The notes under the pieces were generated by a model. The model ran no database searches, was not told the origin of the DNA, and was given only the letters and a program-made list of their open reading frames with translations. Positions 18,619 through 47,710 of a stretch of 64,000 bases of DNA are shown one piece after another; the first letter of the stretch is position 1; each line of letters opens with the position of its first letter. Source of the stretch: Chrysoperla carnea (taxonomy: Eukaryota > Arthropoda > Insecta > Neuroptera > Chrysopidae). The translations under genes and the position numbers were made by a program. The stretch covers positions 106,758,368 to 106,822,367 of the forward strand of contig NC_058337.1 in NCBI RefSeq assembly GCF_905475395.1. The letters run 5' to 3'.

Positions 18619-18927
18619 CTTTTCTCGTGCTTTTAAATTGAGGTAAATACTTTCCAGGCGAAATAATTTAATTTTTATTATCAATTATTTATTATTGTTG
18701 TAATTATAACTTGCAAAAAGTAATCAACTCCAAACTTTTCAATGCTCAACACTAACAGCTGTAACTTGAAATTAGTTTCTACTTTGACAACCAGGTGTCA
18801 TGCCTCCTTTTGTCAGATCCCAATACCTTTTATCTATGGCATAAACATTTGACGTATTCGTAGGCATATCGCAATGCTATTTAAATCGTATCTTGTGCTT
18901 GTGGAGATCTTGTAAAATAAAAAGAAA

Positions 18928-21327: not shown

Positions 21328-24300
21328 ATGTGTGACCCTCCAGAAAGACATTATGACTGCGGCGAAAAAATTCTACGCCAAAAACAAGAATGCCAATTCT
21401 TGGGAGAAAAGATTGTTTCTAAAACTATTGGTAAAAAAAACATAAATAATATGTTAATCAGTTAAAAAATTTTTGAACGTGTATTAGATCCAAAAACTCA
21501 AGAAGAGGTGTCGAAAAGAGTGTTTTTCAACCAAATCGATGATTTTGTAAATCAAGGTACACGTACTCAATCCAAGCAATCAGAATCAGAAACAGAATCA
21601 GGATCAACATTTGATGCGGATTTTGTTGATCCTGCGGAGCTGGATGAAATTCCAAGTTTGACAATATTACAGCGATTAAAGAGTAATACAAAAAAATGTA
21701 ATATAAGTAATTAAGCTACTTTTTAATTTTTCGGTATTTTAAAGAATTTTGGGTTACAAAAGAAATGGTTGAAAGAAGTCCGGATTGTGATCTGCGAATG
21801 AGAACAACTTTATCCGAAGTGTCTACTTTTTTCATATTTTTACTTATTGTACTAATAGGTTCGTATTTTTAGTAAATTCCTCTGGCAGTAAGTTTGTACC
21901 GAAAAAGGAATGATTCAGAATTGATTTCGAGTAAATTTTGAAACAAATTATTGTTTGTTTTTACTTCACAGTGTCATATGGAAAACGATCAAAATCTGAA
22001 ATCCATTTAACTGATTCATTGAGACGTAATTTGATATTTTCAAAATTCAAAAATCCACAATTTCGTATATTCACATATCCTGAAATGAAAAGTGCACCGG
22101 ATATTTGGGCGGTAATGTAAAACTTTTTCAATCTTTTTAAACAATATTAAGTATTAGAAGTGAATACATTCGATGTATGTAGAAATAGATAATAGTGCCT
22201 TATATAAATATCATAAAAATCGGTCCACTCGTTTAGGAGGAATACAGTGACTAACATCTACACACAAGAAATATATATAATATATTAAATTTTTTTTGGA
22301 TCCTTCTCTTTCTCAGTGGGAAAATTCTTGGCATCAAGATGTTTTTCATATGTTTTTTACGTTAAATTGAATGGAACTGGCCACGAGATCGAAATGATAC
22401 TTAAATGTATCTATTCATTCTATTCACCTTAAAACCAACAAATTTCAATACCCAATTTTATTTACTATTGATATTACTGATTCCTCGACTAAATTTTGAC
22501 CTCGAGATAAAAAAAAATTATTAAGACCCTAACATCAACAAATATTTGAAAATGGGTAAGAATGGAACTCAAAAAACTCTTTAATTTTGAGTATGTGAAT
22601 AACTGGTTCCATTTCGTTCTCGGGGTCGTTTTTTTTTCGATTCAGTGTCCCAAAAAACATTTAATTCACTTTTTAATTTCAGGACACAGCAATATATACG
22701 TGAACTCCCTATAGTTGCTACTGGATTATGAATAAACACTAATATTGCTTCTTTTTTTATTTCAACCTTTTTGCTATCGTTATTAAAAGGATGAACTATT
22801 TAAAATGGATTGTTATTTATTTTTATTTTCAGTTCTTGAACGGACCATTTCTTGATACGATTTACACCGAATATTATTTTCATGATACACAAAAATATCC
22901 TGTAAAACATACAAAAGTGTTATTTGAAAGTATACTTATTGGATTGCCCAGAATAAGAATGGTATTATGATCTTGTATTTATTTTTACCACAAAACTGGG
23001 AGCAATTGTGTGTTAGTGTCGAAATTTTACTTAATTTAAATTTTTTCTTATATTTAGTATAATCTCTATATAAATATTGAATTGTACACAAATTTTAAAT
23101 GCAATCGCCGACAGCGGATATTGCTATCTAAAATAATTTTATTAACACAATTACATCCCGTTTTAAGGTAGATTTAGGTATGGTTTCGAATATATTTATA
23201 AAGTTGTTATAATTTTATAAAAGAAAGCAAATAGAGGTGATTCTTGCCGCATTCATCATGCATTTCAAAAAGAATTTGCATCCTGTTTTGATTACTATCA
23301 TGAAGCTGATGAAAATAAAACTGCATTTGGGGTTAGTCCATCAAGGTTAGTGAAAAATAATCAATCTTTTATGTCCAGAATACACATGAGTAATTTTTTT
23401 ATAGCTACATGTGAACAAAAATGTCTTTGTTTTTAAGCCAATAAGCTTGTAAAAGTAATAAGAGAGTATAAACTAATATTTTAAACCAAGATTTAAGCTA
23501 CTAATCCTATCATCTAATTTTCTATCCTGCCCTTTTCTGTTAGAAGTGTTTAACCTTTCAATTCCCAGTATCACATTGAAACATGTTTTTAAATTTTTTT
23601 AAACTATAAGATAAGTAAACTTTAAAGTTTGTTATTGAAAATGCGCTAGTTGCGTCAAACAAAGTATCAAAATATCGATAATTCAACGGATATTAATTCA
23701 CTTTTCTGTCATATTTTTCTCGAAAATATAGACTTATGCACTGTATCAAAGGACGTCGGAGGGTGGTGGGGTGCATTACAGGTCCGTTTTATAGCAGTAA
23801 TTTACAATTTATGAAGACATCCCTTTAGTTCAAATGAGCTGAACTTTGGTATAAGGAACTGTTTATCTGTCGGATTAAAAGGGGGGAGATGTTTGAATTT
23901 TTTAAGGGAATTGTGTTAGTGCTAGTTTGAGCTAGTGCATGCAAACCGAATGAAATTTTCTGCCATCATCAACCGCTTTAGCATTGTATCAAGTTAGGAT
24001 ATATTGTGCTAATGGTGGAATAGTTGCCTACTTACCTAGTTAAAAAAACTAGGCTCTTTCATCCCAGGCATCGCTAATATTCAATATAACTGAGTTTTTA
24101 CATATTTTGCATAGACTCTTTGAATGGAAAGATAACGGCGAAGATTATTCTTATTGGGGTAATTTTGGTATATATAATCCAGGTGGTTATTCTCAAACAT
24201 TATCGTATTCTAGTATGGATGAAGCAAGGAGCGCTATAAATGAATTGAAAAGAAACTTATGGGTTGCTCGCAGAACACGGGTCTTGTTTGTGGATTTTTT

Positions 24301-27300
24301 AATATACAATGCTCAAGTGAATCTATTTTGTCGAGTTCAGTAAGTTTTAGTATCGTCAATAAAGTTTACGTGTACAAATTGACTTTCGTAGATGTTGACA
24401 AGATCAAAATTTAAAATCATATTTTTTTTAAACCATTTGTTATTTTTATTTTCATTATGTATGTCCCATTTTCAGCAATTCAGGTGAAAATTTCTTAAAT
24501 GAAGAAATGCAAAAAAATGGTCTTTAATTTGCCTGATCGTCAACTTCTAAACCCCTCAACCTGCTTTTCTTATACCACAAAATCAGGCCTTTAAGCACTT
24601 TTGTTTGAAGACATTTCATGTTTTTGGCTAAAGACAAGAATACTGTTTCAATAACCAGCGTATAATAAAAAGAAACATTAAAGGAAGAGCAATTAAGACT
24701 TTAGCAATTAAGCTCTGTTGCTCATAATTTATTTTTTTTAGATTGACAATGGAATTACCACCAACTGGTGGCGTTTATTCATCGTATTCATTTAAAACCG
24801 TGAAATTGTTTAGTTTGCTCACCGCACGGGACTTTATTGTTACCGGATTTGAAATAACATTTGCAATGTATATTGTGTATTATATAATTGAGGAAATAAT
24901 TAAACTTAGATTTTTGAAGAGTCGATACTTCCAGTATTGGAACAACTTTATAGATGTTGCAATTGTTGGTGTAAGTGCATTTTAGATTTCATATAAATCG
25001 TATGAATAATTAACCGGATTTGCCTGTTTTTGAAAAAAAGTACTTGCCCAATAATCGTTGAACAAACTAATTTTTTGTTCTTACACAAAAATTTAAATAC
25101 AATTACACAAAATAGAAATTTAAAAAAATTGGTGGAAAGTTTTTTGTATTTAATTTGGATAAAAAACATTTTCTACAGTAATTTTTACCCAAAAAATTAA
25201 AAAAATGAATCTATTTTGACGGATGAGCGGGTAATTAGTAAGATATCGTTCCAAAATCGTATACTGAGGACGATATTCCGAAATAATTTTGTCAGAAACT
25301 TTTCGTTTATCGCATAATTGTCAGATACCAAAGAACATATACATATAATACATCCAGTTAATTTGACGACTGTCGAATAACCTTCAGTGATAAAATGAGT
25401 AATTTACTTTGTAATTCGTTTTAGTGTGGTGTGTATATTACAATATTTTTATTGATCAAAGGTATTACCTTTTCACCAAAAATATCAAAACTGATACACG
25501 ATAAAAATTTGGAAAAAGAGTACATAAGCTTGGATGGTTATATTAGGTACGAATGGATCTATTTAAAAATATGTGGTATATTAATATTTTTATGCCATTT
25601 AAAATTATTTAATTATTTTCATTTTACGCCATATATGTCACTGTTGAATGTTGTTATCATACGTGTAAGTTTGGTCCTAATGTTAATTACAGAATGGCAT
25701 CGAAAAGGCCTTTACAACAATTTTGCATGCACACAGCTGGATTAAGCCAGTGTTGGACTCGCAGGCCCTTAGTTTGATTTAGGTTCCTAAGTTTAACGTA
25801 GTAAATAAAACAACTGTTAAAAAGTAGCGTCATCGTTCTCGTGTTTTAGTTTTTGTGAAAACTATCTCCCATCTTTGTCGGCTATTGTGGCCGGCTTTTT
25901 ATTGGTCAACTTTTTATAAGCATTTTTAGTCTTCGTTATTCCATCACCTGCCCTTTTATCGAGTATGAGTAGCATAATTAAAAACTTGAAAATTTTATAA
26001 TACTCAGGTAGATGTTGGTGCGCGATTCCGTAGCATTTATTACTCTTGCCACATGGCTAATGTGGGTAATCCGATAATGAGCACGCTTAATACAATTGAC
26101 ATAAATCGACTTAGTTAAATTAGAAATAATTTTTTAATATTATAAAAATTCAATAAAACACAGTAAATGTTTCCGTAAATGTAAGTTTTACAGATCAAAA
26201 TTGCCAGGTTTTATAATATTAATCGAAAAATTGTAAGTTTTATAATTCTGCTCTGCCCAACGCATCAATTTCTACGCGCGGCTTTATTCATGTCTTTTTA
26301 ACTTATTATGATGATATGATGAAATTACGCAATAGATTGGCGCAAATTCGAGATCGTTATCGCCTGTCATTCACGAGAAACCGTAAACGAAAAAAAATTA
26401 CGAAAGAATGACGATAAATGCATCCACACAGGCATCAATCTAAAAGTGATCCTAGCTATGAAACGTACAGAATGTTGAAGATTTCTATTTGAATTTTCGG
26501 ACCCATTACAATACCTTCATTGGGCAGTTAAAAAATAACATATTTAGTTTTTATATTGGTTGGAAAGTCAAAATCCCTTAATTAAAACTATATAACTTTG
26601 TAATAAAGGCAATTTAATCAAATCGATACATTTTGTCACCTAGGTACTATACGTGATAGGTTGTAAAGGTCTTTTTGAGTATACTATATATTCACACTGA
26701 CCTTGATTTTTAAAACCTATTTTTTTTTGTTTCAGTCATTAAAGCACATTTTGGGATTTCTCGTAATGTTTGGACTAGTCTATTTTGCTTTTGCTGAACT
26801 AGGATATTTATTATTTGGAGCAACAGTATGTTGTTTTCATTTGATTATTAATATTAGTTCTTAATTGACATTTAAATTGCTTCAATCTCGTTGAATTTTT
26901 TTACATTTCAAAGTAATGTAAAAATGTGGGCATTTGTGGGTTCAAGAAAAAGGGCTCAAATTTATACCAGTTCAAGTTTGTGGAGGGCAGGGGGGTTCAA
27001 GTACGTTTTTTCTAAACGAAACGGAGAGCCGAATGATGGCTTGTTTGAAAGGTGAAAACCCCTTTCAAACGACAAATATAACGGATTTTGAAAAAATTAT
27101 AAAAACGTATTTCGGCTACCATGTAGTAATCATTATTATGAATTAACTAATCGTAACGTCGTTTGGGGAACTTAAGAGTAACAAAGATAAACGCACATAC
27201 ATACGCTCACACACACACACACACCAGAGGGGATTCAATACATAAATGAGGACTTACTAAATGTGCCATCTATTTTAGGGAAAATAAAACTTAATATATT

Positions 27301-29484
27301 TTCCTAATAATGCATTTTTTTAACAGGCTAGACAATTTCGTACATACTTGATATCGATGTATACGTTATTTAAAATTTTATTGGGTGATTTTGATTATAC
27401 AGAATTGGAAGATTCTGATCGTATTATTGGACCATTATATTTCTTATCATTTTTATTCACAGTCTTCTTTTTTATGGTGGTATGTATTTAAATTAATTTA
27501 AATTACAGTGAATACCGTTTAAAGCAACATCGCGTTTTGTGCCCGGAGTTTCGTATACAAAGGCATGCAGGTTGATTTTTAAAAATTTTCATCCTTATAT
27601 TTCTAGAATGAAATGGGAAATCATAGAAAGCAAAAACACAGCTAAGTTTTAGGAGGAATTAAAATACATTATGTATTATCATTCGGAACAACTATATGGT
27701 CAAACGTAAAATTATCTCGTTCTTTGTTGCAAAAATGCAACTGTTTTGTTTGAAAACTGTTTTTCATAAACTACAGTTTTCGATACCGGATTTTGATGTT
27801 TTTTAAAGCTAAAAATTAAACAAGTATAGGAAAAAGTTACTTTTTTTCGATAAAAAACAAGAATCCGTAATAAAATGATTATTTTGAGAATTTGGTGATC
27901 AAAAATTTTTGCTCTTCAATACAGAGTGTACTTCTAATGAAGAACGAGGTTTTTCGCATTTGCATATGCATTATAATCGACTATTTGTTGCTGTAACTAT
28001 CGGTTATAACGATTGAGTATCGATGATGGGCACTTTCGATGCAGCTTTAAACGATTTTCATGTTGTCTGGTACTTTAAGCTACGATATTAAACAAAAAAT
28101 TACTTCAATGTTTTAGAACATGTTCTTAGCAATTGTAAATGAAACTTATGTGATGACTAAATATGAAAAAGATCGATTTGGTGTCCAGCATGCTTTACCA
28201 CTTGGAAATTATATAAAACGTGGCATTTATAGAGTTATTCCATTCTTCCGCCCACCTACTTGCGAAGCAATAAATTCAAAGCGTGCTAAAAGTGCACTTT
28301 TACGCGTTAAACATGCACTATTAAGGTTTGTAATCAATTTTTTAAATTGCAAATCGTAATATAAAGATCTAATTAACATGTACAAAATGGATTCTTTGAA
28401 AAGTATCATTAAAAAAATTAGCTATTTGCAACCCTTGTACTTATCAAACCTGTCTTCCATGACAGAAACTAGAAAATGAGGCACTCCAGCCTATATTACG
28501 GTCAGTTATGGATAAATTATAATATTTTTATAGGAGTAATTTTACCTTAACTGAGATTAATATGTTCCTTGCGAAATATGGAATTGATGGCAAAAAAGCA
28601 ACTAATCCACATGATATTGCTAGAATAGTCACTGATTTAGAAAGAAAAGGCTTTGCTCCAATGGGTAAGTGTCTAAAAATTTTTTTGTTATCATTAAGAA
28701 CTTGTTAAACCACGATTTTTGTTGTGGCATTCTATGCTTCTAAAGGAAAATCATTAGTTGTGTTTTTATCGGACAATAGTCTTTGGAATCCTACTTTCAA
28801 AATTGTAAAATAAGAACCAATTTATTAACTTTTTGTAATATTTTAGAACCTCCAACACTTGACGAGTTAAAATTATACAACAAAGGTATCTTGGATGAGG
28901 AAGATGTTTTAACTGAGAGCAGATGGACTGGTTTAACGTTAGCCAACTTTAAAGAGTAAGTTTTTGGAACAGTTCTGGATTCAATTGTTTAGCCTGATAA
29001 TCGTACATTAAGTTAGGAGTAGGAGTGACAGACTTTGAGAGAGCCGGATGTTATGCTATGTTAAAAAAATGGCTTCTTTTTGGAATCCGCAATATTAGTT
29101 CCGCACTTAATCTTACGAATGACAATGCATTGCCTTATTTTCGACAGTTATTAATAATTATTCTTTGATGTTCATAGTGTGATCAGGAACTCTTCTTGAG
29201 ATTAATGAGTAGGAACTATAGTGTTGTGTACTAATTGCTTAATATGAAGAGCCTGTTTTAGAAATATATATAAAAATGACATTAAAGTTATTGAAATATA
29301 TAGATTACGAAATTAAAATCAAAAAATTGACCAGAGAAAAGTAAAGCGATTCAAATAATCTTTGATTTTTTTCAGAATAATGTGTCGTTTAGTATATATA
29401 GAAAAACAAATTGCTGCAACTTCACGTCGTATTTCTAATGTTGGAGAATTAATAGAAAATCCTTGTCTGAAACCTGTTTGCTAA
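21328..29484 (+). CDS. Polycystin-2-like (TRPP) cation channel, paralogue A
   Basis: Fifteen exons: 21328-21430, 21488-21706, 21745-21858, 21972-22111, 22833-22961, 23224-23345, 24115-24339, 24742-24970, 25425-25664, 26736-26825, 27327-27479, 28117-28325, 28534-28664, 28847-28955, 29376-29484. They total 2322 nt, giving 773 aa and TAA. TM1 is near residue 131-148. The extracellular polycystin (TOP) domain follows at about 150-360, including R-R-T-R-V, NLFCRVQ and MELPPTGGV, then TM2 (about 375-400), the S3-S4 region in exon 9, and S5 in exon 10. The pore loop has the PKD2-type selectivity filter L-G-D at 556-558, then GPLYF and S6 with NMFLAIVNETY. The C-tail has a weak EF-hand-like region (FTLTEINMFLAKYGID) without a clear calcium loop. 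It is expected to be a membrane cation channel, perhaps ciliary or sperm-tail as for other PKD2 relatives. AATAAA lies at 29536. The exact end of exon 2 is the least certain junction. Confidence 0.85.
27208..27224. repeat. (CA)n microsatellite in an intron of channel gene A
   Basis: Uninterrupted CA dinucleotides, about 8 units, within intron 10 (26826-27326) of gene A. Confidence 0.8.
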
Positions 29485-29535
29485 ATCATTAAGAGTTCAG
29501 ATTACTTTATACCTAATACATAATTTCATTGTAAA

Positions 29536-29552
29536 AATAAATGCATAATAAA
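29536..29552 (+). promoter_or_regulatory. Two AATAAA polyadenylation signals
   Basis: AATAAA at 29536-29541 and again at 29547-29552, 52-63 bases past the stop of channel gene A. This is the likely 3' end of that transcript, about 420 bases before the start codon of gene B. Confidence 0.55.
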
Positions 29553-29968: not shown

Positions 29969-32900
29969 ATGGACAATGAATTTCCATGTACATCACATTC
30001 ATCACCCAATGCAAAACATCTAGCAGCTGCATCAAAATCAGCATCTTTCAAAGATCAATCATCCGCATCTAAATATTCATCTTATAAAGAATCATCGTTT
30101 CTAACGAAGTCTTCATCTTCTAAAGAACCATCATCTTCATTTAAATGGTCTTCTAAGCTAACATCATCTTCATTGAAGTCATCAATACCTTCATGTTCTT
30201 ACGAACCATCGTCTATATTATCAAAATCAAAATCTTATAAACAGACATCGTTTTCATCAAAATCTCCATCTTCTAAAGCACCATCATCTACATCTAAATC
30301 ATCTCCTAAATTACAATCATCTTTACCTTCAAATGATCAGCCTCTAGATATATGTCCATATCGTTCCGATACTGTTTTGATAAAAAATGAAACTATAGGG
30401 AATGAGTTGCCTAGGACAACAAATTCAGCACAGGTTGGAGAAAAGAAGGGAAGTGAAAGAATTTTTGTGGGGGAAAAAATTGTTATAAAGACATACGGTA
30501 ATTTTTATTTTAAAATCTATTTAGTAATTTGTTCATGGATAGAAAAAATCCGTATATTTGAATTAGAGAATAATAGCCCACAGGACCAATTTTTGATAGC
30601 ATTCCTAAGCTTTAAACTGAAATATATCCATTTTTTTTATTATAACGGAAAGAAATCGAATAACAACCGATAGTTATAAGTCAAACGTTGTCCGTAAGAT
30701 CGTAAAGAAACGCATGTACACAGTCTCAACGGTGATGTAAACTGCAGTAAATTGTTTGATCGTTGCCTTGCGGGCTATATAGGTCACGAAAACCCAAATA
30801 TTTCTTTTCGGCAAAGCAGAAAAGTGATTTTGTGTATCCAGCCTGGCGTAGATTAGGCTACTAGAGATCGAATTGATCTGAATCTGCGGACCTGGGTCTG
30901 AAACAATTGTGATCTGCCAAATACGACATACTAAAAATTCACTATAGTGTGTTCATCGTGTTTTCATTTCCATTGCTTCGTTATTTAAATAGGAATAGAA
31001 ATATTTTACTACGTTTGCGAATTTGTTTTTAACATCAGTCTTGATAACTTTCTTATCCAACTTAGCGGGTGGATTGGAATTTTCTAGAATAAAAATGATC
31101 TCGGTCGAAATATTAGAAATTAGTTATTCTTATAAAAACTTCATCTTCTAAACTTATTTTAACAAAAGCATAACTTGAAAACAAGTACCAACAAAAAAAT
31201 TTTAGTTTACTATATTTTTCAAATCTTAATCTTTTAATTGATGTTTTAATAGATCCAAAAACTAAAAAACTTGTATCACAAAAAGAAGAATTTATCCCTG
31301 CGTCACCCGTAGAAGAAAATTTGGATCGCATTGAAGAAGAATATATAAATCCATCATTTATGGCAGTGTACAGTTCATCATCACATACATCTAAACATTT
31401 ATCTAAACCTACGTCGTTCACTGCCAAACCTTTATCCAAACCAGTATCTTCCACTAAACCCTTATCTAAATGTGTATCATCTACTTCTAAACCTTTATCT
31501 AAACCTGTTTCATCCACTTCTAAACATTTATCTAAACTTACATCGCTACATGAACCTAAACCTTCGTGTTCTAAACCTTTGGACAATGAAGACATGTGTG
31601 TATGTGTCTCACTAACTGATTCGAACAAAGGCGAAAGTATTAAGGATATTTCATTGTCTGGTAAAACAACTTTTGCAGAAATTGCAGAAAAAAAGAGTCA
31701 GAATGAAAGACTTTTGTTGGGAGAAAATATTGTTATAAGATCTTTCGGTAATTTTTGCTTTAAACTTTATAGTACCTACAGTAGATACTATCATACATTT
31801 GTATAGCTTCAATGCGATGAAATATTTTTGAAAATAGTGCGTTCTCTTTCACGATTTCTAATTCCGCCATTGCCATAAAATTGATGAATAGCCAATTGTT
31901 TTTGTTATACTAATAAGATGACAAGTGAATAAAAAATGCAAAAATAGTTTGGTCTGACCCTCTAAAACCAGATTTTTCGTCGTCCGATATACCGAAAATT
32001 TAACTTTCTGAAGGATGCATTTTCAAAAATTTTGCAAATAAAAATTGTCTCAGCCATAATGAAAATACGAAGCTTCAAATGAATGGTATAATAACAAAAA
32101 ATTTTCACTAATAGTTATTGTGGACTATTACACTTTAAAATTTTTAATAAAATTCCGTTAGATCCAAAATCCAAACGACTTGTATCACAGAGAAAGGGAT
32201 ACATTTCGGCAAAATCAGTTGCACAGTTTATGGAAAATCTGGATCGTGTTGAGGCTGAACATACAGACGCGTCTTTCCCATCAGTGTACGATAGTTATCT
32301 TCAAAGAACTGGTCAAGTAAAAAATGAATCCATGCCCATGAAAATAAGAATGCAAAGTAAATTATCAAATTTGAGCTGAAGTTTTTGCAGGCCTAGTGTA
32401 AATTGAGATACCTGTTAGTGAGGTGACGCGGTGCAGTTTTATGTAGATGGATGAGAATGGATATCGTAGGTTCATGTATGGAGGGTAATCCATAGACAGG
32501 CGCCGCAGTTTGTACCTCGTGAGTTTTTATATATTCTCGACGTAAGTAATTATTGTCCAGTATACCCACCATTCATAAACCTGCTTTACCTCTAAGCTCC
32601 ATCTAAATAATATTTCATCAGCTCTCCTCACTAACATACGTCTCAATTTGCACTCGGCCTTAACGCTTTAAAGTGTATTTTTTTTCTTTTTAAGAATATT
32701 GGAAGACTCATGATTTGGTTATGGATAACGATAATATAGATTATCGTATGCAAATATCGATGGTAGAACTTGCAACTTTTTTAATTTTTGTGTTTATTTT
32801 AACGTTAAGTAAGATTTTAACATCGTGTATTCATAGGCGTTTTCGGGTACATCATGTGAAAGCTAAATGCATGGGCAGTTCAGTTCCAGGGGAGGTGTTC

Positions 32901-35900
32901 GTGCCTAATTTTTCGATATATAAAAATAAATTCTAATTTAGAAGGGTTTGGAAGTTCCAAAGTATTTTTCCAATTAATAATTTGGATTTTTTTTCTTGGT
33001 AGCACTTTACTTGGACGTATATCCTTCTCAATATAAATATCATTTTACGAATTCTGTGCGAAGAGCCTTTATCACTTCTGATTTCAAAAACTTGATAAAA
33101 ATCCAAATGAATTTTAAACAAATAAAAAGTGCTGGTGATATTTGGGGTGTATGTATTTTAACTTTTAAATAAAACTTAAAGTCGTCAATATATCAACTCC
33201 GAAGAAGTTTTTTGTATTAAAAAAAGAGATAAACACCAATTTCAACAGAAGAAAATGTCAGTGATGTTTTAAACACACACTTTGCTTGAAGGGAGCTACG
33301 CCGATGATGTTCGAGAAAATTTACAAATGTGAAAAAAGCATTTTGTGTATAATTTTATAAAGTTAATATCCTCCATATTTTCGCAGCTTACAAAAAAAAA
33401 AAGTTGTAGGAGGCTATTTTTACTATACATTTGTGAATCGTTGTGCAGGTCTTTTCCGATGTTGGCGACTTTGTAGTGCTTGCTAGTTTAGGTAATTTTT
33501 CCAAAGTAATGGTTTATATTTTTTAGTACCTTACAAAAAAGTTGATAGAAACTCTACACCCCACATATTACTATAATTTTGATGAGTTACGAATAAAAAG
33601 ATTGTATTTTTATGATAATAATCCAATATATGAGAATGCTTTAATTGGAACTACAAGAATTATAATGGTAAGCTCCATTTATTAATTCATCAATTTTTTT
33701 TTTGATAAATTAGACAAAATTTAACTAGGAATCATTTGTAAAATTTATCCGAAGAATTCGTAGAATTTGGTTTCTTGGTAAATTGGTTTATTAACATTGG
33801 ATAAAATTTGTGTGTCGAAAACAATTAAATTAATTTTTTTTTTATATTTTCATGACTTCGCCAGGTACAAAAAGTGAGGTATATTTTGAAAAATTAAGCC
33901 AAATTTTTATCCAATTAGTAAAACTTAAACAAATATTTGAAAAAAATGATTCAAATTTGGTAGATTGGCATACTTACATAGGCTAACCTATTGTAGTTAC
34001 TACCAGAAATTCGATCATTAAGATCTAATCAAATCGGTAATAGAAGATTTTTTATACTTCATCCAGGCATTAAAATAATTTTTTTCTTATTTCCCAGAAA
34101 CGTGTAAAAAATGATTCTTGTCTGGTGCATAGTGCATTTCATAGATTATTTAAACGTGTATGTTACACTTATTTTTCACCTACTGTTGAAGATAAACGAC
34201 CCCTTGGAACCGATTTGTGAGTGTTGACTTACACTTATCATAAATAGTTTAAAAAAATTTAAATAAAAATATAAATTTTGACTTAGCGTTTGGTATTATC
34301 AAGAAGGTGCATCAAATGATACTGGAACTTGGGGCGATTATGGTCATTATACGACCGGTGGATATTCTCAGTTATTATTTTGGAAAAGTGAACGTGATTC
34401 TCGTATGTTGTTATACAGTATGAAAAATAATCATTGGTTAACTCGGGCCACGCGTGCTTTAATTGTAGATTTCTTATTATTTAATCCAACAATCAACTAT
34501 TTTTGTAAAGTAAGGTAAGTAGAGTTTGTTAAGCATCAGCCTTCAATGATATTGCCATAAAGAAAATTTCTTTGTAAAGGCCCCGGCGGCTTGCTTATGA
34601 ACCTCTGTCAAGTTGGCTGAAAAGTCAGAACGTTGAAGTCCTAGGCTTTCTTAACAATCTCCACGGCAAAATTTGATTATAAATAGTTTCGAGATAAGGA
34701 GGGATCAACATTTAAATATAGGCAAAATATATTTATACACGGCATTTTGCTAACATTAATTAAAAATTTGTTTTAGAATGACTTTTGAACTACCCCCTGA
34801 AGGTGGTGTTAATCCATTGGTATCAATTGACACAGTGAAATTAATATTTCCAATAGGAACAAGGGATTATATAGTTTTAGGATTGTTTTTTGTTATTTTT
34901 TGGTTTGGAATATATTACATGATAGAAGAAGTGAAGAGGATTTCATTTTTTAATTACCAATATTGTTTACATCTCAAACGTTTTCTTGACTTAGCCATTT
35001 GTCTGGTATGGATTATTTTATTCTTCTTTTTGTATTTTTCCTCACCGTATATTACCTTTTGTGAAAACATGGAACCCCTTTCTTTAACAAACAGTGCGAG
35101 AGCTTATTTGACAGTGCCGAACACTCACTCGAAGGCCTGTGGCTCATTGAGTGTGGACAGGGACACTCATTAATTTGCAACAAATTTTCCGAAAGGGGTT
35201 AATTTGCAACAAAATTTTAACAATCCCGCCAAATGATCACTGGATTCTCTCCCTACTGATAGAGGGAAAATTAAATTTTTTGAATTCTGATGACGTCATA
35301 AAGTTAAAAAATTCGATTTTTTTGATAACACCGGCAAATTTGATCCGATCTTATTTAAATTTTTTTTGAAACCCACTAATTTTGGGCCACTCTTTTCAGC
35401 TGTGATATCAGTTTTTCGTTAGTTATCACTACTGTGCTTAATTCCAGAATCAGGACTCCATATTCTTGAAGCCTATTAGAGCTAGGCTAATTTTGATTAC
35501 ATATTTGAAAAGTATGACCCAAATTTAGTAGGATTACATATTTGGTTTGTGAAAATTGGATAAAATTTGGATGTGATAGAGCTAAATTAAGTTTTTTGGA
35601 TTTTGATGACGTCATAAAGTTCAAAAATTCGATTTTTTTGATAACACAGGCAAATTTGATCCGATCTCATTGAAATTTTTTTTGAAACCCACTAATTTTG
35701 GGTCATTATTTTCATCTGTGATGTCAGTTTTTGCTAGTTATCATTTATGTGCTTAATTTCGGGACCAGGGCGCCACATTCTTGAAACCTATTAGAGCTAG
35801 GCTAATTTTGATTACATATTTAAAAAGTATGACCCAAATTTAGTAGGATTACATATTTGGTTTGTCAAAATTGAATAAAATTTGGATGTGATAGAGCAAA

Positions 35901-38900
35901 ATTAAAATTTTTGAGTTCTGATGACGTCATAAAGTTAAAAAATTTAATTTCTTGATAACATCGGCAAATTTGAGCCGATCTTATTGAAATACTTTTGAGC
36001 TGTGATGTCAGTTTATCGTTAGTTATCACTAATGTGCTTAATTCCGGGGCCAGGATTCCACATTCTTGAAATCTATTAGAGATTGCTTACTTCTTGGTTT
36101 TCAAAATTGGATAAAATTTGGATGTGATAAGTCCCTTGTTGTGGAAATTTTAATCGATTATAGGTTGAGCTAATCTGGATTGAATGAAGGAAGCCTTGAA
36201 TGATTTTCTTATATACTAGGATTGACATTAGTAACGCACATTTTGAATTCGCTAATTCGATTTTCGAAATCATTTTGCCGCATTTGTAAATACAATTGTC
36301 TTATTTAATTGTAATTTTTAGTTGACCATGTATATAGTGATTTATATACTAGTAAAAACATTTTATCTTCGTAACTATATAACGAAAGCAATTCGAGGTA
36401 CAATAAAAAGGCGATATATTAGTTTGGATAATGTTATACGGTTTGAAAAAATTTATATGCAAATAGCTGGATTACTACTATTTTTATGTTTTTTAAAATT
36501 AACTTATTTTATGAATTTAACCAATTGTATGGTTGTTTTGAATGTCACCATTAAACGGGTAAGATTTTTTTAATTTAATAACCGCGGGCTGGATTCATTG
36601 AATGGCGTGAATACTCGGAAAACTTGAAAAATACTTTTAGAAGAACAAGAAATAATCGTTCTTTACTTTTCTGCGAAAATAATATTCGTTGTTTCTAGGC
36701 AATGAAACAGTTCATTGGATATTTGCTGTATTTTGGATTGATTTTATCGGCATTTGCATCCGTTGCTCATTTATCATTTGGTACTCAGGTAGAAAAATTA
36801 GCCTTTAAATACGAATTAATATTTATATGAAATACAAAATCTATTTCAGTCCAATTGTTTTCGTACTTGGACAATGTCATTTTTTTCATTAATTCGTGTA
36901 TTTGCGGGTGAATTCAATTATTTGGAATTTTACGAAAGTGATAAAATATTTGGACCGATATTTTTTTCAATATATCTATTCACCGTATGCTTCCATCTTG
37001 TGGTATGTAAATTAAATTTCATCTTTTAACACTACTTTGGTGTAAAAATCGAATTTCAAGTCCAGGTCTTGGTGTTGTAGGACCTAGAATGTAAGGGAAA
37101 AAGCTTTGAGGAAAAATGGGTGGAAGGACGAAAATTTTGCAATTCCCCCTCCTCTTTTTGAACAGGATCCCCGAGATACAAAATTTGAGAAAATGTCAAT
37201 TAATCACCCATGAACAATGTCTCAAAGTTTCAACTTCCAGTTTGTTTTCATCTAAAACTACTTGTTGACTATGTTACAAGTGTGTAGTGTGTATTAACAC
37301 GTAAAGATGTATACTTTGGCATAAGTGTATTTCTAGAATTTAATTTGTAAAAAAATATTCAAAATCCTTGTTCTGAGGCTGAGGATCTATCAGTCCGTGA
37401 ATAAGAACGAATGCGACTAGGTTTTTTAATAAAAATTATCCATCTTAATGCCGAAAAACGGAATAAAATAAGAAAACTATTTTTTTTTAAGTTTGTCTAT
37501 TTGGCAATTGTACATGAAACATTTCAAGAAACATTAGCGGAACAAGAACGATTAGGGATTGAACATTCATTACCATTTGACAAGTATGTACAACGTGGTT
37601 TAACAAAATTCTTATCATGGTTAAGATTAGGAAAACGTCCAGATAGTGAAGAATGTGAGAGTAAAGAGGCTCGAGATACGCTTTTAGAAGTGAAAAATGC
37701 TTTATTGAAGTTAGTATAACCAATATTTTCGAATGTTTCAATAGACCAATATTGAATTTTTGAATCGCATAAAATAAAAAAGTTTGCAAGTACCTGTTTC
37801 ATCTACTAGATCATGCAAATTTCATGAAAGTGTCCCAAAAGTAGAAATAAAGATTGTACTGGACTGTATTTTTCTTGTTTAATTGAAGGATAGATCCCCG
37901 CTTTTATTCATATTTTCTAAACTTTTCAGAAATAATTTTACATTAACAGAAATAAACATGTTCTTTGCCAAATATGGTATTGATTATAAAAGATGTAGAA
38001 ATCCGAGGGATGTTCAGAGAATAGTTCAAGACTTGGAAAGGAAAGGATATTGTGCAATGGGTAAGCATTGAAATAATTTTTTTTTTTTGGGAATATATAT
38101 ATATCACACTAGCAGTTATCTGCCCGCATCACTGAGCAATTTCAAAACAGACTATCGCGTTATATTCTTCACTTCCCTTGCCTTCACTTACCTCATAAGT
38201 GAGATAAAATTTAGTCAATAAGACTTTTTAGAAGGGCATAGCTAAACCCTTTAATGCTTATGCATTTATTCATAAAACCAGTTCTTAGCTCTAAAAATGG
38301 CTCGGAACTATTATAGAAAATGGTTGTTTAATTTTGATTAGGCGAGAATTGGATCTGATCGCCATCTATACTTACGTATTTTCCGTTTTGTATTGATATA
38401 AATAGTGATAAAATTACGTTACTTACATTTACGGATTCAGAATTGGCCTCTCAATTACAAAAATTTTTCGTTTGTTTAATTTATTCCATTCACTTTATTA
38501 GAACCACCAACTCGGGAAGATATAATGGCATGCAATAAATGGAAAACAGAGCTAGAGCCTGAAGAAATATTGGCAACACCTAGACATCAAAGATTGACGT
38601 TGAACTTCAAAGATTTTAAAGAGTAAGAACTATTCTGTTTGTATAAATTATATTTATTATACAAAGCTTTCTTGTAAGATTAAAATAAAAAGGAGATGTC
38701 GAAAGAGAATTTTCGCTTATTCTGTAGGTAATCAATAATTTTAAATTCGTCAATGGTCAAAACTGGAATATTTATCTTCACTCTCGCGATATTTCAAGAG
38801 TAAGTATTTAATCAATTTTGTTTAACTTCTATTGTTTATTTTGTAGCTTAATGGAACGCATGCGACACATTGAAAAGAAAATCACTCAAACTTCAAGACG

Positions 38901-39090
38901 TGTAGCTGTTATTTGCGATTTAGCGAATTATTATAATAAACATTTTTGGAGTGTCCCAATGATTGATAAAAAAGGTGAGGTAGTTTGGCATACAGGTAGA
39001 GTTACGAAGAAATTAAGTATTTTAGAGAAATTGGATAAGAAATTTGGTAGGAAATCCTGTTCAGATTCTCGAAAAACAAGAATTATATAA
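29969..39090 (+). CDS. Polycystin-2-like (TRPP) cation channel, paralogue B, with extended Ser/Lys-rich N-terminus
   Basis: Sixteen exons: 29969-30497, 31253-31747, 32162-32356, 32695-32808, 33003-33148, 33527-33667, 34098-34216, 34287-34514, 34777-35005, 36322-36558, 36699-36788, 36850-37002, 37492-37709, 37930-38060, 38502-38622, 38847-39090. They total 3390 nt, giving 1129 aa and TAA. Residues 1-340 are Ser/Lys/Pro-rich low complexity (units like SSTSKPLSKPV). A short module (VGEKIVIKTY then DPKTKKLVSQ) is present twice. TM1 is about 430-445, the TOP domain about 446-660 (TRATRALIVDF, FELPPEGGV), then TM2, S3-S5 and the pore loop. The selectivity filter position reads A-G-E at 860-862 instead of L-G-D, and the S6 end is FVYLAIVHETF instead of NMFLAI-N-TY. 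Exon sizes match A through most of the channel body, so it is a tandem duplicate. It is expected to be a membrane channel with altered permeation, or a non-conducting subunit. Confidence 0.83.
32390..32659. mobile_element. Small terminal-inverted-repeat element (MITE-like) in gene B intron 3
   Basis: Termini GGCCTAGTGTAAATTGAGAT... (32390-32423) and the reverse complement of 32626-32659 agree at roughly 28 of 34 positions. Both start GGCC and end GTTAGTGAGG. The 270-bp body has no open frame and is richer in G/C than the intron around it. I found no clear target-site duplication, so the superfamily is open. Confidence 0.72.
35258..36130. repeat. Tandem ~315-bp repeat, about 2.7 copies, in gene B intron 9
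   Basis: The phrase GATGACGTCATAAAGTT recurs at about 35290, 35606 and 35921, a period of 315-316 bases, and the text between is collinear ('GATAACAC-GGCAAATTTGATCCGATC', 'CTATTAGAGCTAGGCTAATTTTG', 'GGATAAAATTTGGATGTGATAGAG'). The third copy is shortened by a deletion of some 60-70 bases. Each unit carries the palindrome TGACGTCA. Repeat units similar in parts may lie inverted at 33720-34060. This is a satellite-like array. Confidence 0.85.
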
Positions 39091-39711: not shown

Positions 39712-42700
39712 TTAAGCTCCCCTTTTTGGTTTCAATAATCGATGTAACCTTCTCATTCGTGTGTAAACATTTTCGTATCGCTCATCTAAGCTATCTAATC
39801 TTCTCGCTATCCTGAAATTTTTATTTAAAATGTTTTGAATAAATGCATTTCATTTCTGCTTAATAATATTTAAGTGAAATTACCTTGCATAATCTTCCGG
39901 TTTTGTATTTTGTTCCTGCATTTTCTTAACAACTTCCTTTTCTCCTTTCTCGACAAGTAGTTTTAATTGTTTAGCCGAATTCAGAAAGAAATCAATAGGG
40001 ACTAAAATAAAAGATTAATTTTATTGAAATAGTTTTTAAAATAACCAAAAGTTCCCAAATGTGTTTTTAGTATCTTTTCAACTTCCGCTATTCTCTTGAT
40101 TTATCCTGTTTTTTTCTTGACTAATTAGTGCCTAGATAAGATTGGTTTTATCGATGGTTTATCCTCGTGATTCTGGTCAGAATACCAAGATAAAGTTATC
40201 AAATTTTTGTATTGTCATCGGAAACCTTGATAAATGTGCAAATTTTCAAGTTAATCAGATAAAATAGTGTTAAAAAAATAGCCATGCTCATAATTACCAT
40301 AAGAATTCATTTCCATGTATTTAATATCTTGAACAAGTTTTTCCTGACGTCGCTTTGACAAATGATGTGCCACTTTGTATTGTTTCAATTTATACTTTGC
40401 CATAAATGCATGAATCTCAGCAGGATTGAAGCCATGACTAAAAGAAGAAATCTCTCATAGTTAGTGTCTACTCTTTTAAGGGCCCGGAAAATTTTTAATA
40501 TTATCGCCAGATTTAAATGTATGCATATCCGCTTAGGACGATATTCAATTAAGAGGTTTGAATAACAAATACAATAAAAAGTTTGTTCGACGTTTGAAAG
40601 AAAGAGATTTCCTCTTCCGAAATCCTAAAAATTTGCAGTTTGTCGAGTGGAATTGAAAATTTTTTGCTGTGCAGATTTTCTTATCGGAAAAAATTGTTTG
40701 ATGTGACCATGACAACAGTTTATCCGTAATCGGTCCATAAAATAAAAAAGAATTGCAAAAATTTACTTATGCTTACTCGAGAAGTAGTTCTATAATATCG
40801 CTGTCATACATTTTAGCCGTTGCTGTGGGTTTTCTAAAGAGAACACTCTTCTTACCAGAACCAAATATATTATATCTTGCACGTTTCAAATAGTGTATCG
40901 TGTTCAAGTTTGTTTCCTTATGTCTTAAACCATACCGTGTCATATGTAAATATGCTTCATTTAATATAGAAACTGATACATTCTGTAATTAAATATTTTC
41001 AGTTAAAGATTCAAATCCGTAAACCCATTTTTTAAAATAATGCGATACAATTTTGAGTATATGTAAGTAGATGTTAAGAATTAACCGTTCCTTTGAGAAT
41101 TGCGAGAAATTTTTTTTGCAATTAAAAAAGATTGTAAGATTCGCTGTCAAAGTTGGAACTTTTTGTATTACTTAACTTGACTTAAACTGACACATTTTAA
41201 ATCACAAAACACGATCTAAAGCTGCTTTTCTGGTATGTTACTTGGACCCCTTAAGGGAGTGTGAAACTAAGCAAGTTGTGCCACATGGATAATCCGTGAA
41301 AAACTGCAAAATTTTCGACTTTTTTCTGTTTTTGCAGTTCAAATCAAAAACTATGAGCTGTTAACTTTTGTTCCAAGTATTTTTTTCGAGAACTCAATAG
41401 ATAAGAAAGAGGTAGAAATTGCAAATTCTGTCTATTAGTTTTGATAATTGGTAACTAATCAGGTGGTCTAAATTGGAACTACTGAATTAGGGTCTTTTTC
41501 TGATTTTAATTAGTACGAATTATTATCGCCAGTTAGCGAGTTGCAATTCACAGTTATAAATATAAAAAATGAGTTTTTACATTAAAATTATCATAATAGA
41601 TAGAGATAGAGAAAATTTTTAAATTAGGGAGTTGGCCAATATGAAAGGAAGAATGTATTTTGTTGAAAAAAAACTATATTTTAAAAAAAAATCCTTCTGC
41701 TGTTCCGGTAATTTTCTAGCATCTAGTATAACAGCCTTATTTATAAAGTGAATTCTTTAAAAAAAGCTACGAAGAAAACGATTTTAAAAATATTTAGAAA
41801 TAGATTTTTTACCAGCACAATGTTGATAACGAATATTAGAAATGTAATCAAATAAAGAGGTCCCAGAATAGTATCAAACTGTTGCAATTCGTCAAATTGA
41901 GTGTCACCAGCAATACTGCGTAGTAATGTCAAATATGCATTTCCTAACGTACTATATTCTGGCATCTAAAACAAAAGGAAACCACATGATTTTTTTTTTA
42001 TTTCGTTATCGTACAGATACTTACTTACGCCCATTCCAAACATTAAAGTTCCCATTTCAGCAAATGCCAGAAAGAAAAAACCTACAAGAGCTATAAAATA
42101 AGCCATCTCTGATGCACACTAAAAACCACAAAATAATAATTTGATTTAGTTATCCTGCTTTTTAGGAAGGAACGTATTCGAAAGAACATTATTTGTTGTT
42201 TTGCTACAAGACGAGATGACGACTTCACTTTTTTGTGTCTTGAATTTTTTCTCTCTAGTTTGACAGTGAAGCATTTTTCTATTCATGAAGTTTTTTTATC
42301 ACCATTTTAGATAATAATTGATATTATGATATTTTGTTTTAAACAGATGTACTAGTATTCTTGCATTTTTTTTTTCGTTACCATATTTTGCCCAATACTA
42401 TAATTGTTGCAATTCCATTTTCATGCTTTACTTACCCGGCTCCCTAGATATGATTTCTTTTGAATACGTTCTCACATTTGATTTTTTGAAAGCTAAAGAT
42501 TGATATAGATACATACCATAAAAAATAAATTGTTTAGCTTTCTCACCACTTTTGTAAAATCAAAATAGCGTATAATTTTTAACCATGAAAAAAATAAAAC
42601 CGTACCAAATAAATGATCATGAGCAATGCGTAAATTTGAAACTGTATCAAAACTTGTAAATGCTTTTCTATAAGGATTTTCTATCGTAAGATCTGTTTCA

Positions 42701-45700
42701 CGAAATATTTGGCGCATTTTAATTTCTAACATACTCTTTAAAATTATTATACCGAGAAGTCCCTGAAATTCAAATAATTCATTTATTAATTCAGTTATTG
42801 TAGACTAATTCGGGGATTTTTTAAAGTCAATTTGAACTTAGTATTAAGATTTTTACTCTACCAAAACCCCTTCCCACCCCAAAAATTTTCAGAATTGATT
42901 TAGACTTAGTCCAACTTCATTAAAAAAAAATCAAGCTTTTTTCTAAAAATTGCTCAAAACAGGAGAAGTCGACCATCTACAGGCAATATAAGCGTCAAGT
43001 TAATAATTCGAATTTTTTAATTTAAAATAGATACTCATTTATAATACTTCATACTTACACCAATTATTAATACATCTAAATAATGCCATGAAAATAAAAA
43101 ATATATCCATCCAAAAAGTGCCATTTCGCGTGTTGTTTGGATTAAAAAATATATGAAATACAATCCCAAACCACCTTCAAGGCCTAATATGAAGTAATCC
43201 CACGGATCATAATAAGATATTAATTTTACCGTGTTGAATTTATACGATGGAAATATACCTCCAGTAGGTGGAATTTCCAAAGTCAATCTGAAATCGGAAA
43301 TTTTGTTTAAATTATTTAGCAAAATTCATTATTAAAAATGAAAATAAGATAGGTACAAATAATTTCAACTCTAAATCTAAAATTGCCTTGGTGCTCGTAC
43401 TATCTAAAATTTAAAATAAAAACGGATACTCCTTAAACGCCACCCTTGTAGTCGCTTTCGTTCTTATCCTCAGCATGAAGATATTCCCCACAGACTAATT
43501 TTTTACTTACATAATATTACAAAATAGTTTTAAGTTTACATTAAACACTGTAAACTGTGTTGTTAATGCACGAGTTCCTCGCTGAATCCAATGATTTGAT
43601 TGTAAGTCATCAAGTCTGTCAATATTATCTGCGTTAACATCTTCAATAAATCCTTGTGCATTGTAGTCACCAAATATTCCACTAATAGAAGAACCATTTT
43701 CCAGTTTGTGTTCCCATGATTCCCTGTAAAAAATAAATAAATTTTCATTATTTAGTGTACGAAAACTCAACCGAAAAATATTTTAGTAATTAAACTTAGT
43801 AATATTTCAAAGTGGGGCGTAGGTAATGAAGTGAGCTCGGGAGATTTTATCAGAAATAATGAAATGACGGAACACGGTCACCCCTTTAAAAAAGAGGTAA
43901 TCCTTAATACGGAATGCGAAACTTTATATTAAGTTTAATCCCAAGTTTGTAACGCTTAGAAAAGCCAAAACAAGGTCTATAAATTTTGTATATACATATA
44001 AAGAATTTTTTTTTAATTCAAAAAGTTTTTATACATAGGCAATTTTTTTACACAAATATGTTGAAAGTTGTCTAAAAACAAAAGTATTATTATATTAATT
44101 TTTGTTTCGTCACCAAATTAACAACGGGTAACATATGGCATCTATAAAAGTAATTACGATTAGCTAATCATACTGATGATGACCTCATAGTAGTAGAAAT
44201 ATGTATTTATATAATAAAATAAATTGATGTAATTTAATTGCCTAAAAATGTTTAAAGATTCTCAAATTTGTGCAAAGCTATAGAATCTGCAATAAGGGTT
44301 TAAAATAATACTTTAAATACATACTTATTTTCTTTCCATTCATTTTTTTATTCGATAACACTTATTAAATTTAAATAAACCGGAAAAAATGAGATTAGTT
44401 TGCTTATTATTAATATTAGGACGAGCATACATGATGCGATTCTTTTGGGGCGAAAGTTTCAAACCAGTTTCATTCCACAATCAAATTACAATTACTTATT
44501 ACAATTCTGCACGTGGATAAGACTGTTTGTGTTATAGAGTAGTAGTGCAGAGCATATCTAACTTTTAACTAAAAGGACGCAACTCCAGTCACGAAAAACG
44601 GAATCGCGTTGAAATGATTTGAAACTTCAATAGTGGTTTTATAGAAAAAATAAATTCGTCACATACACACAAGCCTCACAGGTAGAGTAGTACAATGGTA
44701 GGGCTCTCAAGCTGATATTCGAATATTTCGATTTTAGACCGAGTTTATAAATCGGTTTATTATATACTATTCTATGATACGCTTTAGCTATACGCGCAAA
44801 TTGTGTCCATAGCATTCTATGCTTTTCATTCCTATAACAAATATTTAAGTTAGACGTCGCTTATAATAATGAATGTAACATATTCTCCCCGATATCACTT
44901 AGCCCGAAAATAGGCCAGAAACTCTGATCTGGAATCCACTCACATTTTTTTATTTAAGCATAGACCTGCACATAAAGGCGTTCAGAGTTGAATGTGCGAG
45001 CTCTTTTTTTTAAATTTTTCGATCCATTTTTGAATCGGGAAGTTAAAAATAATTCCATGAAATGTCTGCTGGCTTAGAACTATCAACCCATAAAACGGAT
45101 TTTCTAATATCAAAAAATTCGTAACTGATACTTACTTTTCTTTGCCTTGAAACATTTTATCATCTTGATAGAATTTTGTATAATAATCGAAGCAATAAGG
45201 TTGATACTTTTCAAACATCTTACTCACTTTGCAGCTATCTCCGGTAACACGCATCTAAGAATCAATATAAATAAAGTTTTACTATGTATGTGAAGTCATA
45301 TGAATAAATGTTCATATAATTCAAGAAGATGTTAGGGTATACCAAAGAAATCATTTTTGGGATAGGATAGGTAAAATGTATTTGTATGCATATCCTTTCA
45401 AAAATGTGGAATTGGCGTAAAAATTTCATAAATGTAACAATATTTTTGTATAAACATATATTTAGCCATTAAATTATTGGTAAATCCAGATCCAAGGAGG
45501 AGAGATGGGGTAACACGCACTGGTTTGTTACTTTTACAGCTATCTATTTTAAGATTATTAAATTTATTATATTTAAATTTTTTGTTAATTTAAATTTATT
45601 CAATGTTAAAAGTGATTGAAACATACCATCTTTAATCGAGCACTACCTAACATTCGATTTTCATAAAGTATATTATTTTTATCTTCCGAATCGGTTGGTA

Positions 45701-47710
45701 CGCTTTTGTGACCCATATGGTACCATTGCGTTATCAATGACTCTTTAAAATGTGTAGTTAAATACTGAAACATATTTAAAGAAAAAAAAAGTTGTTTATC
45801 ATAAATTTCTATAATTTATATTGCAAACGCGGCATAACTTGTCATCGAATTTTCTATGGAAATATTCAATTTGAACATCCCTGATGCTCTGACTAGTTTT
45901 GGGCGATGTCTTTACATATGTATGTAGGTAGGAACTGGAATTAGCCGTTACGTAGAGTAGGCAATTATCTAGGGGACCCACATTGGCCAGAAGGCCTAGG
46001 AAAAATATTTTACGGTGTTATGAACGATTTTGTATCCAAAAATGTTAGAATAGTTAACATTAAAATTAAATAATAATAAATATGGCCCCCAAAAAGGGAG
46101 TCAAGTTGATCTATGAGGAATAAAAACAAAATAAACAAGGAGTAGATATTTGTATAAGAAGGGATCCACAAAGTAGCGTTAAATTGATTTACGAAGACTA
46201 AAATTGAAAAAGAAAAGCGTTATATTGCCTGATTTTAGCACCCGCCGAGAATTGCATTGCCTATGGGCCCTAATATAATGAAAACTTGACCACTTAGTTT
46301 AAATTATGAGTACTCGGCTATTCAAGGGGTTCTTGAGCTTGAAGTGAATCTCTTGGCTAGCGGGAACCACAAGCGTTTCCTTTTTATCAATTTTTCTCTC
46401 TCCCTTAGGTTTTTTATAGAAAGATCGGCTGATATTGTCAAATTTTCGAAGCAGGCGTTTGAGAAAAATTCACAAAAATATATACGTTTTCTTTCAAAAT
46501 TGCAACAGCCTGTTTCTAGAACCTAACGCTTTTTCGACCCTAAGTGTATATATTAAGAAATAATAATTATTTTAATGTTTTCTACCATTTAACGAAGTCA
46601 TATAACTTATAACTAATATTAAGATATTGCCTTTACCTTAAAAATATCGTCAACAGAGTCTATTTCAAGAAAAGTAATTGGTATCCCTTTATAACTAATA
46701 AACTTTGTATCAACAAATAACCTCTTCATTGCGCTTGTTAAGTAATACGAAGATGGTTTATAATTGCTGAAAATCACTTACAAAACAAATTTTACAATTA
46801 AATTTGGTATTTATTTGGAATTTTTTTGTGAAACTGGTAGATTTTGATCAAGAAGTATATTGAGTGACTAGCACGTTCTGGCCTTTTTTTAGTATCTTGT
46901 ATTAGATATCATCATTATTCTAATTCGAAACAAAAAAAAGACAAATAGTGTTAAGCTCATGCCATTTTGGTATCCTGATCCACAAATTCCACAAAAAATG
47001 TAAAAATTTTGGATGGGGATTTGACATTACTTGGAGTCGATCCTATACATACCAGTTAAAAGCAGAGTTAAATATACCACGTACATAGTTAAATCTTTTA
47101 AATTTGTACGAATTCTAATTTCATCACTATCACGAACTTTTTCAACCATAGATGGTTCTTTTCCTTTTGACAGTTTAAAAACTTTCATATCTCCTGGGCT
47201 AGAACGCATATCAATCCCCTCTTCCATTGCAAAATTTCTTGTTTCATAATCGTAAAGATAATCTGCCATGGACTTAGTTAACCATTGGTCTACGAAAATT
47301 AGTAAATAATTAAAAAAGAGTAATAATTCGCTTTATACTCAGTACAAAAAATTACTGGATTGAAGTGTAATTCAAGCCAATTAGAAATTTGAAATTAGTT
47401 GATATTCGTAAAATTCTGAAGCGAACAATTTCTCAAAGGTTGTGGTTATGAATTATAACTAAAAATACTTTTGGGATACAAAATTTATTGGGAATACTCA
47501 ATATTTACCAGGAACTGCTTGTGCTTTTTGAAAAGCACGTACTTTGGCGTTGGTAATAAATTTATCGAATCCTGTTCTTTTTTGAGTTGTTCTTTTGGTC
47601 AGCTCGATAATATCGTCAAGCCAACATCTTCCCATATATTTGAAGCGAGCATTGTCACCACTTTCATTGCTACGCTCATACCATTTTGGTTCATGTTCAG
47701 AACTTTCCAT
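39712..47710 (-). CDS. Polycystin-2-like (TRPP) cation channel, paralogue C
   Basis: Fourteen exons, given in minus-strand order: 47710-47509, 47289-47031, 46766-46637, 45764-45627, 45254-45136, 43723-43511, 43287-43059, 42762-42517, 42118-42029, 41965-41813, 40982-40777, 40437-40298, 40001-39884, 39811-39712. They total 2343 nt, giving 780 aa and TAA. The N-terminus is charged (MESSEHEPKWYERSNES). TM1 is LTMYVVYLTLLLTGM at about 140-155. The run from TM1 into the next exon aligns well in layout with known PKD2 (LLTGM...NYKPSSYYLTSAMKRLF), and I used this to pick the donor at 47030 rather than 47052. The TOP domain contains QRGTRALTTQFTVFN and LEIPPTGGIFPSYKF. TM2 through S5 follow. The pore filter is A-G-D at 561-563, with GPLYL and S6 ending NVSVSILNEAY. 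The C-tail is basic and helical, with no EF-hand loop. It faces B tail to tail, implying an inverted duplication. Confidence 0.83.
45960..46280. repeat. Dispersed repeat inside gene C, copy 1 (partner at ~51.93-52.32 kb)
   Basis: Shares ordered phrases with 51945-52310. They are 'CC(A/G)C(A/G)TTGGC(C/T)(A/-)AGA-GCC(C/T)TAGGAA', then a GGATCC block followed by 'TTGATTTACGAAGACTAAAA', then 'TG-CTGATTTT(A/C)(G/A)CACC', then 'AATTGCATTGCC', then 'GGGCCC'. The copies are diverged. It lies in the intron between exons 45764 and 46637 of gene C. Family not identified. Confidence 0.6.

Follow-up and report, generated by a model that had tools for sequence, protein, structure and literature searches.

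The window is the whole stretch of DNA that was analysed, 64,000 nucleotides of the Chrysoperla carnea genome (C1:106758368-106822367 of a 559.5-Mb assembly in 337 contigs). Three intact genes of the polycystin-2 (PKD2, TRPP) type, here called A, B and C, were assembled at positions 21328-47710 of the window, where they span 26.4 kb. A and B lie head-to-tail on the forward strand, and C is on the reverse strand, tail-to-tail with B. Exons were picked from three-frame translations and joined by a script, and the internal borders were checked for AG/GT and phase. The gene models, and an exon duplication detected within gene B, are as follows:

21328-29484, forward strand: gene A, PKD2-type channel of 759 aa in 15 exons (spliced model and Pfam)
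Gene A, exons 1-8, forward strand: 21328-21430, 21488-21682, 21763-21858, 21972-22111, 22833-22961, 23224-23345, 24115-24339, 24742-24970
Gene A, exons 9-15, forward strand: 25425-25664, 26736-26825, 27327-27479, 28117-28325, 28534-28664, 28847-28955, 29376-29484
29969-39090, forward strand: gene B, PKD2-type channel of 1129 aa in 16 exons (spliced model and Pfam)
Gene B, exons 1-8, forward strand: 29969-30497, 31253-31747, 32162-32356, 32695-32808, 33003-33148, 33527-33667, 34098-34216, 34287-34514
Gene B, exons 9-16, forward strand: 34777-35005, 36322-36558, 36699-36788, 36850-37002, 37492-37709, 37930-38060, 38502-38622, 38847-39090
47710-39712, reverse strand: gene C, PKD2-type channel of 780 aa in 14 exons (spliced model and Pfam)
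Gene C, exons 1-7, reverse strand: 47710-47509, 47289-47031, 46766-46637, 45764-45627, 45254-45136, 43723-43511, 43287-43059
Gene C, exons 8-14, reverse strand: 42762-42517, 42118-42029, 41965-41813, 40982-40777, 40437-40298, 40001-39884, 39811-39712
30407-31770, forward strand: exon duplication within gene B (self-comparison)

All internal exon borders of the three models carry AG/GT, the phases are closed, and each model has a single, terminal stop. The sequence-only reading had described three full genes with closed phases in this same order and orientation, and they could be re-assembled at the same coordinates. The lengths that it gave for B and C were reproduced exactly, whereas our model of A has 759 aa and not 773. 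The long N-terminus of B is rich in Ser and Lys. In the self-comparison, the end of its exon 1 with the bases that follow (30407-30520) recurred at the end of exon 2 (31654-31770) with 73% identity, and the start of exon 2 recurred at the start of exon 3.

The three proteins matched the Pfam models PKD_channel (E from 8e-40 to 1e-27) and Polycystin_dom (E from 4e-38 to 8e-31) above the cut-off. A profile built jointly from A, C and B without its first part, which thus scores the three together and not gene by gene, matched best the PDB profiles of PKD2L1 (6du8, E 1.4e-125) and PKD2 (5mke, 2e-123) as against 2.9e-34 for PKD1L3, 4.9e-16 for PKD1 and 2.2e-6 for mucolipin-1. The cysteine pair of the TOP domain (equivalent to C331 and C344 of PKD2, which presumably form a disulfide), the tryptophan W414, the S3 aspartate D511 and the acid after the filter glycine (LGD in A, AGE in B and AGD in C) are kept in all of them. 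Residue comparison detected no normal calcium site of the vertebrate C-terminal EF-hand in A, B or C: its ligands are largely lost, the loop positions 763, 765, 767, 769 and 774 reading GDKAD, GDKCD and KKYVR, respectively, versus DDDEE in PKD2. We do not regard the EF-hand as a defining feature of the PKD2-type family as a whole. A profile scan of the window ORFs used a model that contained A, B and C and is therefore not independent evidence of their identity. Scanning the window for tRNAs and for Rfam families gave no hit in either case, searches for relatives in general genome contigs and viral contigs yielded 169 and 125 pattern matches of which none was confirmed, and a tblastn comparison with phage sequences, which gave no match, was uninformative. 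Judged by their sequences, all three genes are intact and encode insect polycystin-2-type (TRPP) cation channels. The earlier description of the genes as PKD2-like, intact and divergent is borne out by the Pfam domains, the open spliced models and the low core identities given below. Each protein would assemble as a tetramer, giving a six-helix channel whose polycystin (TOP) domain is extracellular, and would perhaps act in sensory or sperm cilia by analogy with fly Pkd2.

A search of the whole genome with PF08016 pointed to six places, namely A, C, two in a second PKD2 locus and two that were set aside as other channels after their sequence had been read. We take the latter to be a TRPC-like gene with ankyrin-like sequence (on C2) and a T-type-calcium-channel-like gene (on C3). 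The second locus, C1:60.268-60.295 Mb, lies on the contig of the cluster at a distance of 46 Mb and holds two tandem genes on the reverse strand, D1 and D2, represented by partial models of 11 core exons each with both ends open. Their filters read AGDFQ (D1) and HGEFD (D2). No extra copies outside the five genes were found in the window, in 60 kb to its left and 80 kb to its right or in 100 kb around D1/D2 (best E 0.17) with a profile built from seven proteins including the genes themselves, which tests for copies and not for identity. At least five divergent PKD2-type genes, a trio and a tandem pair on one contig, are thus present in one insect; this number is a minimum, as the PF08016 search missed gene B, which is known to be present.

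It is improbable that one or more of these genes is of the brivido type and not the Pkd2 type. Both classes are present in flies (PMC7143563, available part) and divergence is strong in C, D1 and D2, but the same text describes Brivido proteins with 8-10 membrane segments instead of six, and A, B and C align with PKD2 across the whole standard channel and contain both polycystin domains. A crude hydropathy scan gave six merged peaks for A, six for B and four for C.

All three genes contain exons of 229, 90 and 153 nt. The sequence-only reading had noticed this too and took it to mean that they share one ancestor within a local family. As evidence of a local family, it has to be abandoned. In the portion of PMC11355194 available, exons 4-6 of human PKD2 measure 251, 225 and 229 nt; the counterparts in A measure 129+122 (=251), 225 and 229 nt, and the 229-nt exon, the size of human exon 6, is found in B and C too. 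D1 and D2 likewise have exons of 90 and 153 nt, and in addition one of 229 nt (D1) or 232 nt (D2). The exon sizes therefore predate the cluster and are no mark of local duplication, and their recurrence as proof of a local origin is ruled out by the human PKD2 splice sites together with D1/D2. As a general warning, that exons have the same length is no evidence of local duplication when the gene family is old.

Twelve introns of human PKD2 were compared, ten derived from the available part of PMC11355194 and two others. Among the ten, 7 were matched in A, 7 in B and 6 in C within three alignment columns and in the same phase (6, 6 and 4, respectively, at the exact column). With the two other sites added, the matches amounted to 8/12, 8/12 and 7/12 compared with about 0.5 on average at random, and for none of the genes did any of 20000 random trials reach the observed number. 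The introns in common with human PKD2 support the gene models even without transcripts. Exon 3 of gene A has a weak donor (GTTCGT), and the intron lies at the same column and in the same phase as that at c.709/710 of human PKD2. On the evidence of these splice sites, much of the exon pattern common to A, B and C is the old animal PKD2 pattern. Both borders of the 90-nt exon are missing from human PKD2, and this exon is present in A, B, C, D1 and D2.

Core identity was 38.8% for A-B, 28.8% for A-C and 27.1% for B-C; to human PKD2L1 it was 33.1% for A and 29.1% for C. In the best tree, which is unrooted, contains no outgroup and only two human proteins and has long branches, A grouped with B (support 100), D1 with D2 (100) and C with the D1/D2 pair (UFBoot 94, aLRT 95.4). 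The claim that A, B and C form a local family thus stands for A and B, which are nearest kin, and is less secure for C. A tandem duplication most likely gave rise to A and B, and C more likely lies beside them as a member of a second subfamily, which changes faster and to which D1 and D2 also belong. The distance between A and B (ML, 1.43) exceeds that between human PKD2 and PKD2L1 (0.57), which implies that even this pair is old or fast-evolving.

A less probable alternative is that local duplication produced all of A, B and C as one family, with D1 and D2 having moved away or forming a separate branch. The location of the three genes within 26.4 kb is in its favour, and a root on the human branch would make all five insect genes one clade. 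Joining C to A/B cost 7.3, 6.5 and 3.6 log units and was not rejected by the AU test under any of the three models (p 0.069, 0.106 and 0.189, the third model having an unrealistic tree length of 55). The raw identities in the alignment with D1/D2 also count in its favour in that they do not separate the two placements: C is as similar to A (28.5%) as to D1 (28.1%); the values for C-D2 and C-PKD2L1 were 26.5% and 28.1%. The 90-nt exon, shared by A, B and C and without its two borders in human PKD2, was also considered in support of this alternative, but it is found in D1 and D2 as well. Moreover, the ML distance of C to A (2.14) is similar to that of C to PKD2L1 (2.07), PKD2L1 is closer to A (1.69) than C is, and C sits with D1/D2 in the best tree. 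Placing C with the human pair was rejected under two of the three models (AU p 0.020, 0.014 and 0.074). The origin of C in a second subfamily continues to be preferred, although our confidence in the explanation as a whole was lowered from high to fairly high because the grouping of C with D1/D2 finds no support in the raw identities.

The branches of B and C (1.00 and 1.24) exceed that of A (0.47) more than twofold, and the inner-gate asparagine N681 of PKD2 is a histidine in B. Both observations could be expected if B or C were decaying or silent, but this is very unlikely since the frames are open over 16 (B) and 14 (C) exons with normal splice borders and dN/dS is below 1. The NG86 estimates were 0.36 for A-B, 0.53 for A-C and 0.58 for B-C, with dS of 1.4-1.6, near saturation.

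The pore is encoded in each gene by an exon of 153 nt:

27327-27479, forward strand: pore exon of gene A, 153 nt, filter LGDFD
36850-37002, forward strand: pore exon of gene B, 153 nt, filter AGEFN
41813-41965, reverse strand: pore exon of gene C, 153 nt, filter AGDTQ

The five filter positions read LGDIN in human PKD2 and LGDFD in PKD2L1. The filters LGD, AGE and AGD were correctly noted to differ and hence thought to affect ion selectivity. According to the accessible part of PMC6056229, L521 and G522 of PKD2L1 face the pore axis with their backbone carbonyls. In our view, the change from L to A at this position need not alter selectivity. The position two residues after the filter acid, absent from the sequence-only reading, probably matters more: it is D in A, N in B and Q in C, and only A keeps the outer acid among the three. 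In PKD2L1, the D523N and D525N substitutions lowered calcium selectivity 19- and 8-fold (PMC4922860, as far as available). As the only one with the outer acid, A is predicted to be the most calcium-selective of the three; with the full PKD2L1 filter, its channel is predicted to be calcium-permeant, while B and C, devoid of the outer acid, are predicted to be less calcium-selective, like PKD2 itself (LGDIN). This prediction has a better footing than one drawn from the change of L to A. The pore-helix arginine R638, conserved in PKD2 and PKD2L1, is a lysine in A. This arginine bonds to the filter acid, as stated in the available text of PMC6056229, and its replacement weakens the case for PKD2L1-like behaviour of A. 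The S4 gating charges of PKD2 are K572 and K575 (PMC12184499, available part), and at these positions A has K/N, B has K/Y and C has K/R, the second being basic in D1 and D2 as well. With the second gating charge lost, the voltage dependence of A and B may be weaker. The pore-residue contrasts LGDFD, AGEFN, AGDTQ, AGDFQ and HGEFD offer a test set for the determinants of calcium selectivity.

Mixed assembly is possible among members of the polycystin family. One might imagine a linked trio in which A provides a PKD2L1-like calcium pore and B and C co-assemble with it and tune calcium entry, the genes being kept together next to Scr because they are regulated jointly in a single cell type, for example sperm or ciliated sensory neurons; we regard this as a highly speculative idea with little chance of being correct. 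A further feature of the window is relevant to its setting:

62430-62792, reverse strand: homeobox exon (window sequence and Pfam)

We take this exon to be that of Scr. The channel cluster lies on its 3' side, where Dfd would be expected by Hox order. Scr and Dfd have been reported to be split in Aelia acuminata and C. carnea (PMC10914929, available part).

In the available parts of published surveys, six insects had one or no TRPP gene each and TRPP was found to evolve fast (PMC2753570), and counts reached three in Zootermopsis and four in Drosophila, brivido included (PMC7143563, PMC10379062). The cluster had been called unusual. At least three TRPP genes per insect fall within this published range, so that gene number alone is not exceptional, whereas the surveys give none to four genes per insect versus at least five PKD2-type genes here. 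The arrangement itself was not met among the literature matches listed: a TRPP tandem cluster in arthropods was not reported in the best 10 of 38, nor a cluster of polycystins in Neuroptera in the best 8 of 347 (titles and abstract starts in both cases). In all, the genes are, as far as sequence comparison goes, ordinary members of a known channel family with a modest but real twist in their pores. We consider it likely that they constitute an intact TRPP trio in which A and B are tandem duplicates and C comes from a second subfamily with D1/D2, with the predicted contrasts between the pores.

Compared with known systems, the cluster resembles human PKD2L1 in domain layout and in the cysteine pair of the TOP domain; the LGDFD filter is identical in A, the core of which is 33.1% identical. 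A differs from it in the N at the second S4 lysine, the K at the pore-helix arginine and the absence of EF-hand ligands, and B and C in their changed filter residues. Human PKD2 has the same channel layout, shares 7/10 introns with A and B and 6/10 with C, and agrees exactly with A in the lengths of the 225- and 229-nt exons and with B and C in that of the 229-nt exon; it differs in the identity of 27-31%, in the EF-hand, which is degenerate here, and in missing the borders of the 90-nt exon. Drosophila Pkd2 (amo) is an insect TRPP channel of the expected class, likened by class and not by sequence, and this fly differs in having one Pkd2 and three Brv listed (PMC10379062, available part). D1 and D2, from this genome too, are like the cluster in their 90- and 153-nt exons, tandem arrangement and PKD2-type layout, and differ in their filters, AGDFQ and HGEFD, and in the basic second S4 charge that both have, as in C.

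The contig carrying the window (C1, NC_058337.1) also holds a second PKD2-like locus, which lies 46 Mb from the window:

C1:60267812-60294896 (loci L007-L012), D1 and D2, tandem PKD2-like gene pair, partial models

The selectivity filters of D1 and D2 were found to be AGDFQ and HGEFD. Within gene B of the channel cluster in the window, repeats were detected at the following positions:

35257-36129, within intron 9, tandem repeat with a unit of ~315 bp
30031-30338 and 31380-31557, internal repeats

The intronic repeat comprises 2.3 copies, and more partial copies were seen in the self-comparison. The internal repeats encode the low-complexity N-terminal portion of the protein and are accompanied by a duplicated exon end.

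Several further ORFs were recorded in the window:

1989-2765, +, coding-looking ORF (by coding score)
6704-7036, +, acidic ORF with a good coding score
15370-16482, +, first C2H2 zinc-finger ORF
18916-19974, +, second C2H2 zinc-finger ORF
55866-56018, -, short ORF whose coding score is elevated

The two zinc-finger ORFs are neighbours and their C2H2 arrays are alike; of this pair, the Pfam scan covered the first ORF only. Neither the ORF at 1989-2765 nor the acidic ORF gave a match in the Pfam scan. Two long ORFs are located immediately outside the window in the left flank (C1:106755183-106757182), and together with the ORF at 1989-2765 they possibly represent a single gene extending into the window. 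The short minus-strand ORF is possibly an exon of a candidate further gene outside the present models.

One homeobox exon is located near the right end of the window:

62430-62792, -, Scr-like homeobox exon

The exon is called Scr-like on the basis of its sequence, and its 3' side faces the channel cluster. When the exon was used as a query, no further homeobox match was found among the ORFs of the window, 60 kb to its left and 80 kb to its right. This lack of a second match in the searched stretch is in line with a Hox cluster broken between Scr and Dfd.
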